This document shows positions 35,255 to 36,437 of a DNA stretch of 41,493 bases, piece after piece; the first letter of the stretch is position 1; every line of letters begins with the position of its first letter. The notes beneath the pieces are model-generated. The model ran no database searches, was not told the origin of the DNA, and saw nothing but the letters and a program-made list of their open reading frames with translations. A program made the translations under genes and the position numbers. Location of the stretch: NCBI GenBank assembly GCA_030130125.1, contig JARZZM010000011.1, positions 1 to 41,493 of the forward strand. Reading direction: 5' to 3'. This DNA comes from Thermoproteota archaeon. Lineage in GTDB: Archaea; Korarchaeota; Korarchaeia; Korarchaeales; Korarchaeaceae.

Positions 35255-35312
35255 GTACCCCTAGGGAGTGAAAGTTTTTCGTATTCAGGTCGCCAGCTCC
35301 CCAGGTGATGAC

Positions 35313-35573
35313 ATGAAGGTGAGGAAGAGAAGCACCGGGACCGAGGAGGAGTTCCTTCCCGTAAAGATAGTTGCGGCCGCAATTAAGGCCGGAGCTTCCG
35401 TTAAGTTGGCTGATGAGGTTGCCAAGGCGGTGCAGGAGAAATTCAAGGGTAAAGAGGTAGTGGATAGCTCAGAGATCAGGGAATTCGTGCTTAACTACCT
35501 CAAGGAGAGAGAGCCCTCCGCCTACGAGAACTGGCTCAGGTTTGACAGTCGGGTGAAGGGCATCTCCTCCTAA
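35313..35573 (+). CDS. Stand-alone ATP-cone domain protein
   Basis: An 86-residue protein consisting only of an ATP-cone: MKVRKRSTGTEEEF, FLPVKIVAAAIKAGA, the middle EVAKAVQEKF and the end EIREFVLNYLKEREPSAYENW. The ATP-cone senses ATP/dATP and usually sits at the N-terminus of class I/III ribonucleotide reductases or in NrdR. There is no NrdR zinc ribbon here, so it might regulate a reductase or another enzyme in trans. The frame opens at 35268, but ATG 35313 has AGGTGAT eight nt upstream. The T5 run at 35578-35582 directly after its stop could end the transcript before the phosphatase gene. Confidence 0.8.
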   Translation: MKVRKRSTGTEEEFLPVKIVAAAIKAGASVKLADEVAKAVQEKFKGKEVVDSSEIREFVLNYLKEREPSAYENWLRFDSRVKGISS

Positions 35574-35577
35574 CACC

Positions 35578-35582
35578 TTTTT
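35578..35582 (+). terminator. Short poly-T after the ATP-cone gene
   Basis: Five T follow the stop by 5 nt. If it works, the following phosphatase needs its own promoter, yet none is visible; readthrough is therefore likely. Confidence 0.25.
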
Positions 35583-35596
35583 CGGGGGGTTCGGGG

Positions 35597-36361
35597 ATAG
35601 ACCTGAGGGAGCTAGTTGACCTCACCCTGAAAATAAAGGAGAGGGCTCTTCCCTTCATAGGAGCTGACAGGGAATATTCCTACGTTAGCGCTGGAGGGGA
35701 CACCGCTAGAGCAGTGGACGAGGCCGCGCAGGAGGCTCTCTCTGCATGGTTAGAGGAGAGGGAAAGATATCCGAGCATACTCAGCGAGGAGAGCGGACTT
35801 ATCGAGGGACAAGAGAGGGGAATCGTCCTCATCGATCCCGTGGACGGTAGTTCCAATGCAGACAGGGGAATTCCTTTCGCCTGCGTCTCCGTGGCCTATT
35901 CCTCCTCCTACTCTCTGAAGGATCTCGAGATGGCGGTTATACTAGACCTGTTCAGGGGAGACCTCTATCACGCCATCAAGGGAGGAGGTGCCTTCAAGAA
36001 CGGGAACAGGGTGAGAGTGAGAGACTTCAGGGGTACACCAGTTATCTACTCACCTTGTCAAAGGAACAACTCGGTAACCAAGGAGAGGCTGGGATTCAAG
36101 CATATAGCGAGGAGGGATTTGGGATCTGTGGCCTTGGGCTTAGCTCTGGTGGCAGAGGGTAGGATAGACGCACTCATCGATCTCAGAGGGGACTTGAGAA
36201 TAGTGGATCTGGCCGCTGGCCTTCTGATGGTTAGGGAGGCAGGAGGAACCGTTTTGGTGAACAAACACCGAATAGAGGGTCTGAGTAGGGAGTACTCCAT
36301 CGTAGCCGGGATCCGTGAGGTCGTCAGGAGAGTAGAGATAGAGGGCATGATAGAGCTGTGA
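35597..36361 (+). CDS. Inositol monophosphatase/fructose-1,6-bisphosphatase family, non-standard start
   Basis: A 254-residue archaeal-type IMPase/FBPase, which removes phosphate from inositol 1-phosphate or fructose 1,6-bisphosphate. Metal-site motifs are LSEES (about 62-66), IDPVDGSS (about 79-86) and IVDLAAG (about 201). The first usual start codon in frame is GTG 35714, which would delete 39 conserved residues including helix 1 and the AGGDTARAVDEAAQ segment. The frame is open back to 35546 with no ATG, GTG or TTG. GGGGGG (35584-35589) sits seven nt before ATA 35597, and CTG 35603 is next. I place the start at ATA. Full length then equals the family's usual 250-255 residues. A sequencing error is the alternative. 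Confidence 0.85.
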   Translation: MDLRELVDLTLKIKERALPFIGADREYSYVSAGGDTARAVDEAAQEALSAWLEERERYPSILSEESGLIEGQERGIVLIDPVDGSSNADRGIPFACVSVAYSSSYSLKDLEMAVILDLFRGDLYHAIKGGGAFKNGNRVRVRDFRGTPVIYSPCQRNNSVTKERLGFKHIARRDLGSVALGLALVAEGRIDALIDLRGDLRIVDLAAGLLMVREAGGTVLVNKHRIEGLSREYSIVAGIREVVRRVEIEGMIEL

Positions 36362-36437
36362 TGGAGCCCCGGGGGGGTCTCGAACCCCCGACCTGCCGCT
36401 TACAAGGCGGCCGCTCTGCCAACTGAGCTACCGGGGC
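36362..36437 (-). tRNA. tRNA-Thr (anticodon TGT), with encoded CCA
   Basis: The minus strand gives a complete 76-nt cloverleaf. The acceptor stem is GCCCCGG paired to CCGGGGC, the D arm is GCTC/GAGC, and the anticodon stem GCCGC/GCGGC closes loop CTTGTAA with anticodon TGT. The T arm is GGGGG TTCGAGA CCCCC, and discriminator U is followed by a genomically encoded CCA. TGT reads ACA (Thr), and U73 agrees with archaeal tRNA-Thr. No intron is present. The CCA ends one base from the convergent phosphatase stop. Confidence 0.95.

Follow-up and report, generated by a model that had tools for sequence, protein, structure and literature searches.

A probable AUA start codon in a phosphatase gene, and in a small set of further genes, of Korarchaeum

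Natural AUA start codons have previously been shown in a few bacterial genes. ATA and CTG are both listed starts of NCBI translation table 11, but the gene callers in common use look for ATG, GTG and TTG only; therefore, AUA-started proteins can be expected to be annotated short or missed. In Staphylococcus aureus, infC, ccpN and citZ are started at AUA with approximately 10% (up to 30%) of the yield of AUG, and the low-yield initiation of ccpN and citZ has been shown by reporters (PMC13009471). A separate peculiarity of AUA decoding is known from archaea, in that tRNA-Ile(UAU) replaces the agmatidine tRNA-Ile2(CAU) in Korarchaeum cryptofilum and Nanoarchaeum equitans (PMC8450103, PMC6000648). 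An archaeal AUA start was not found in the literature searched, in which subscription papers are poorly covered.

Here we analysed a 41,493-nucleotide stretch of archaeal DNA (the window) belonging to a genome of 1.5 Mb in 66 contigs. Comparison with related genomes makes it very likely that a phosphatase gene in the window starts at ATA 35597. The features of the locus, in window positions, are as follows.

35268..35573, plus strand: upstream gene, a stand-alone ATP-cone protein of 101 aa from GTG 35268 (PF03477, 30.5 bits), with stop TAA at 35571-35573
35543..35545, plus strand: upstream in-frame stop TGA; in relatives at other positions, the nearest at -24 (G008)
35584..35589, plus strand: GGGGGG, predicted Shine-Dalgarno-type ribosome-binding site, invariant in six species and always 7 nt before ATA
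35597..35599, plus strand: ATA codon at which the phosphatase gene probably starts, invariant at the homologous position in six species and the only shared start-like codon from the upstream in-frame stop to codon 40
35597..36361, plus strand: coding sequence of an IMPase/FBPase-family phosphatase, 254 aa plus stop (PF00459, PH1897-type relatives), with purifying selection on codons 2-39
35714..35716, plus strand: GTG, the first canonical in-frame codon (residue 40), internal and rejected as a start, since 39 selected codons would be deleted and the codon is absent in G006

The initial annotation had reported that the phosphatase frame contains no ATG, GTG or TTG from the TGA at 35543-35545 down to GTG 35714, and that GGGGGG lies seven nt before ATA 35597; all of these coordinates hold, and the second arrangement is identical in six species. 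ATA 35597 and GTG 35714 lie 117 nt (39 codons) apart, giving proteins of 254 and 215 aa respectively, and CTG 35603 occurs in the same frame downstream of the ATA. The stop of the ATP-cone gene ends 23 nt before ATA 35597. This gene keeps its place upstream of the phosphatase in related species, and its end, TCCTCCTAA, is conserved in 5 of the 6 species with the ATA. On the other side, a convergent tRNA-Thr(UGU) on the minus strand (36362-36437) abuts the phosphatase stop (36359-36361) with zero spacer.

Judged by its sequence, the gene is one for an inositol-monophosphatase/fructose-bisphosphatase-family phosphatase. A profile search with the translation matched PF00459 (inositol monophosphatase family) at 96 bits against a gathering cut-off of 27, and the metal-binding motifs SEE and DPxDGSxN are present as SEESG and DPVDGSSN. 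Among solved structures the best relatives are PH1897 (1vdw), the phosphatases 1dk4 and 1lbv and an extragenic suppressor protein. The equivalog for bifunctional FBPase/IMPase (NF009321) was not reached, the score being 169 bits against a curated NCBIfam cut-off of 264.

The gene was found in 15 further genomes of the same genus, in one of them (G005) as its 3′ part only. Whether the ATA is kept in close relatives was a check named at the outset, and the homologous codon is ATA, with no canonical start at the N-terminus, in 6/6 members of what we call the ATA clade (G000, which is the window's genome, G015, G001, G008, G004 and G006; 76–95% amino acid identity to the window's protein). Four of these genomes are distinctly named GenBank records of metagenome-assembled genomes. 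A TTG occurs 10 codons (G004) or 5 codons (G006) downstream of the ATA, far from the Shine-Dalgarno sequence. Both GATAGA and GGGGGG are identical base for base in all six, and the GGGGGG-N7-ATA spacing is invariant, whereas the stretch from the upstream stop to GGGGGG varies in length. Thus, counting from the first base of the stop, the ATA lies 26 nt away in G000, G015 and G004, 25 in G001, 24 in G008 and 22 in G006. In G008 an in-frame TAA lies eight codons before the ATA, and the upstream codons left are TCT TTT TCG GGG GGT TCG GGG. In nine other species of the genus an ATG stands in place of the ATA (G009, G012 and also, outside the genus, G023), one codon before it (G003, G007, G010, G011, G013 and G014) or one codon after it (G002). 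A single branch (support 92/93) separates the six ATA rows from the others, and the simplest history would be a single origin of ATA from an ancestral ATG start, with retention since then while synonymous sites diverged, to saturation between G000 and G006.

Invariance of the ATA codon is by itself weak evidence for a start, because ATA is an ordinary isoleucine codon and 3 of the 10 other invariant isoleucine columns of the phosphatase likewise keep one codon. In pairwise comparisons within the ATA clade, dN over codons 2-39 was 0.02–0.15, with synonymous sites diverged up to saturation; between G000 and G008 dN was 0.048 and dS 0.25, between G000 and G004 0.088 and 1.2, and between G000 and G006 there were 7 non-synonymous against 22 synonymous changes. 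Codons 2-39 are under strong purifying selection at the protein level, which bears out the earlier view that the frame is conserved back to about 35597.

Translation might instead begin at the internal GTG 35714, with the preceding region serving as a leader; this GTG is the first canonical codon and is present there in 5 of the 6 ATA-clade species. However, such a start would remove the 39 conserved residues, as the initial annotation had argued, and their codons are selected as strongly as the remainder. Moreover, these residues have counterparts near the N-terminus of archaeal homologues with solved structures (in PH1897 from residue 12 onwards), G006 is without the GTG, and the ATG of sister species stands at or beside the ATA position. 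An N-terminus at 35714 is contradicted by this comparative evidence and we regard it as highly unlikely. Since the genomes are metagenome assemblies, a base error at 35597 concealing an ATG, GTG or TTG must also be weighed. Here, six separately assembled genomes share the ATA without a canonical start and agree in GATAGA and GGGGGG, four of them under distinct GenBank isolate names; therefore, this is not a sequencing error, and the probability we would leave to a sequencing or assembly fault is vanishingly small.

A further possibility is that the phosphatase is fused to the ATP-cone protein by frameshifting or stop read-through, for which the six-G run or CTCCTCCTAA might be slippery and for which the gap to the upstream stop is suitably short. 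A single recoded fusion would keep a constant phase, but distances of 26, 25, 24 and 22 nt cover all three frame relations and so rule it out; sister species, moreover, carry two separate genes, the phosphatase with its own ATG. We consider any such fusion extremely unlikely. Another near-cognate codon, CTG 35603 or ATA 35633, is very unlikely to be the start. CTG is the better known non-AUG start and further genes of the genus seem to be CTG-started, yet CTG 35603, previously offered as an alternative, reads CTA in G015, G001 and G004, which excludes it as a shared start, ATA 35633 (codon 13) gives way to ATT or ATC in two species, and both lie outside the usual Shine-Dalgarno spacing. ATA 35597, which had been named as the likely start, is the only start-like codon in the allowed interval that is common to the six species.

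Initiation at ATA 35597 is also consistent with the ribosome-binding site. The 16S rRNA of G001 ends GGATCACCTCC, from which the anti-Shine-Dalgarno sequence ATCACCTCC was read. In G001 the predicted duplex between this sequence and the GGGGGG region is -12.0 kcal/mol, where the median is -5.5 kcal/mol at first canonical starts and -3.1 kcal/mol inside genes. The commonest Shine-Dalgarno spacing at canonical starts of G001 is 7 nt, the same as that between GGGGGG and ATA. The phosphatase thus has a strong Shine-Dalgarno sequence at the proper spacing, of the kind seen in S. aureus ccpN and infC. A hairpin between CTCCTCC at the upstream gene end and GGGGGG, which could have coupled translation of the two genes, was rejected, as folding was no better than that of shuffled sequence (z +0.4 to +2.5).

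We surveyed all of G001 and 860 kb of G009 for further ATA starts by comparing frames. The sites of the resulting genes in the window's genome are given below.

G000:C29:40636: pyrF (orotidine phosphate decarboxylase)
G000:C43:3717: polyprenyl synthase
G000:C13 near 93140: Orc1/Cdc6

In pyrF the ATA is present in 14/14 same-genus genomes where the gene was found, and a conserved AGGGTTC-type sequence immediately precedes the codon. An in-frame stop lies four or five codons upstream in 10 of the 14, and in some genomes (e.g. G005) no codon other than the ATA resembles a start from the stop down to the conserved LDSRLILALDF. Across the 14 species 29 columns are invariant in amino acid, of which only 3, ATA among them, are also invariant in codon; pN/pS, 1.13 before the ATA, drops to 0.53 for codons 2-11 and to 0.30 after. 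The Shine-Dalgarno pairing of pyrF is weak (-5.8 kcal/mol). A TATA-like box, nearly fixed, lies ~31–36 nt before the ATA in most of the 14 genomes; the leader is therefore probably very short and the Shine-Dalgarno sequence may be only partly transcribed. The depth of conservation of the pyrF ATA suggests that it has been retained by selection or is at least well tolerated.

In polyprenyl synthase, GAGGTGA or CAGGTGA is followed by N6 and ATA in 8 species, the TGA inside the Shine-Dalgarno sequence being itself an in-frame stop, and for the five closest species pN/pS drops across the ATA from 1.00 to 0.16. The corresponding gene of G009 has GGGGGG-N6-ATA together with an in-frame ATG upstream. 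An Orc1/Cdc6 gene, with GGTGATGTGAA-ATA in G000, G001 and G004, is likely to be a fourth ATA-started gene. The initial annotation had considered the phosphatase a rare case of non-standard initiation in an archaeon; the non-standard start is supported, but not its confinement to a single gene, as ATA is very probably the start in at least three genes of the genus (phosphatase, pyrF and polyprenyl synthase), judging from these comparisons. There was no general excess of ATA downstream of Shine-Dalgarno-like sites in G001 or in half of G009. ATA therefore does not serve as a start codon in general, and its use is selective, confined to certain genes.

Many upstream-extension candidates of the survey proved to be shadow frames, overlaps or frameshifted genes and were discarded. 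One gene of G001, G1_10719, is a further candidate for an ATA start. Likely candidates for CTG starts were noted on the minus strand of G001:C9 and G001:C6 (G1_14036, G1_14234 and G1_11292), comprising lactate/malate-dehydrogenase-type (ATG in G009), methyltransferase-like and alkyltransferase-like genes. A glycerol-1-phosphate-dehydrogenase gene (G009:C1 66861-67956) has no canonical start close to its conserved N-terminus in G009, and a CTG is common to G009 and G001 (G001:C6 113884). An acetolactate-synthase-like gene (G1_6905, G001:C4 minus strand; G9_5107, G009 minus strand) is preceded by a near-identical GGTGGGATTGTTGATCCAACTAG, which is more conserved than the adjacent coding sequence and is a possible regulatory element. 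Lastly, carA (G001:C6 217284-218358) has an apparent frameshift near its start, either an assembly error or real.

As to mechanism, the 30S subunit would be positioned by the strong Shine-Dalgarno sequence GGGGGG (pairing with CCUCC, one G-U) seven nt upstream of the AUA, and the ordinary initiator tRNA-Met (anticodon CAU) may then read AUA through a C-A mismatch at the third position. The product would be a Met-started protein of 254 aa at lowered yield, and the AUA start might conceivably bring some regulatory benefit to the phosphatase. Lax start choice through loss of aIF1 was rejected, since all same-genus genomes searched have a SUI1-family aIF1, apart from G005, which is 63% complete. 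In G001 we identified one tRNA-Ile(UAU) with an intron and two convincing CAU tRNAs, one of initiator type with GGG:CCC in the anticodon stem and the other taken as elongator Met. As no other convincing CAU tRNA was found in G001, a second initiator-like tRNA reading AUA was likewise dismissed. No same-phylum genome searched yielded TiaS, the agmatidine enzyme, which four archaeal controls do have; the association of its loss with AUA initiation is so far only a coincidence of lineage. We tentatively hypothesise, with somewhat more doubt than conviction, that AUA in Korarchaeum is an evolutionarily maintained low-output start for a small gene set (pyrF genus-wide, polyprenyl synthase, the phosphatase and perhaps orc1/cdc6), tolerated through a lineage-specific feature of initiation such as the initiator tRNA, aIF1 or the shift to tRNA-Ile(UAU). 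The pyrF AUA offers a clean system for asking how much latitude archaeal aIF1 and initiator tRNA allow at the third codon position.

An AUA start combined with a Shine-Dalgarno sequence appears to be of a known kind; its archaeal setting, in several biosynthetic genes and genus-wide in pyrF, was not found described in the literature searched. The protein itself shares its fold family, the DPxDGSxN motif and a length of ~252–254 aa with archaeal FBPase/IMPase-type phosphatases (PH1897 1vdw, 1dk4, 1lbv), and differs from them in its ATA start and in scoring below the NF009321 cut-off. The tRNA-Ile(UAU) of K. cryptofilum is an AUA-decoding peculiarity of the same lineage that is present here too, although it concerns elongation (PMC8450103, PMC6000648). 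In S. aureus the starts are bacterial, controlled by IF3 and proven by ribosome profiling and reporters, (PMC13009471), whereas here they belong to an archaeon with aIF1 and are predicted from sequence comparison. Nevertheless, S. aureus infC and ccpN are the closest precedent, combining AUA with an extended Shine-Dalgarno sequence as does the Korarchaeum-type phosphatase (PMC13009471). As expected of a start of the ccpN and infC kind, there is no canonical in-frame start at the conserved N-terminus and the AUA is kept, in 6/6 species for the phosphatase and 14/14 for pyrF. The AUA of ccpN is conserved between species, and also in Bacillus, just as the AUA of the phosphatase and of pyrF is kept across species (PMC13009471).
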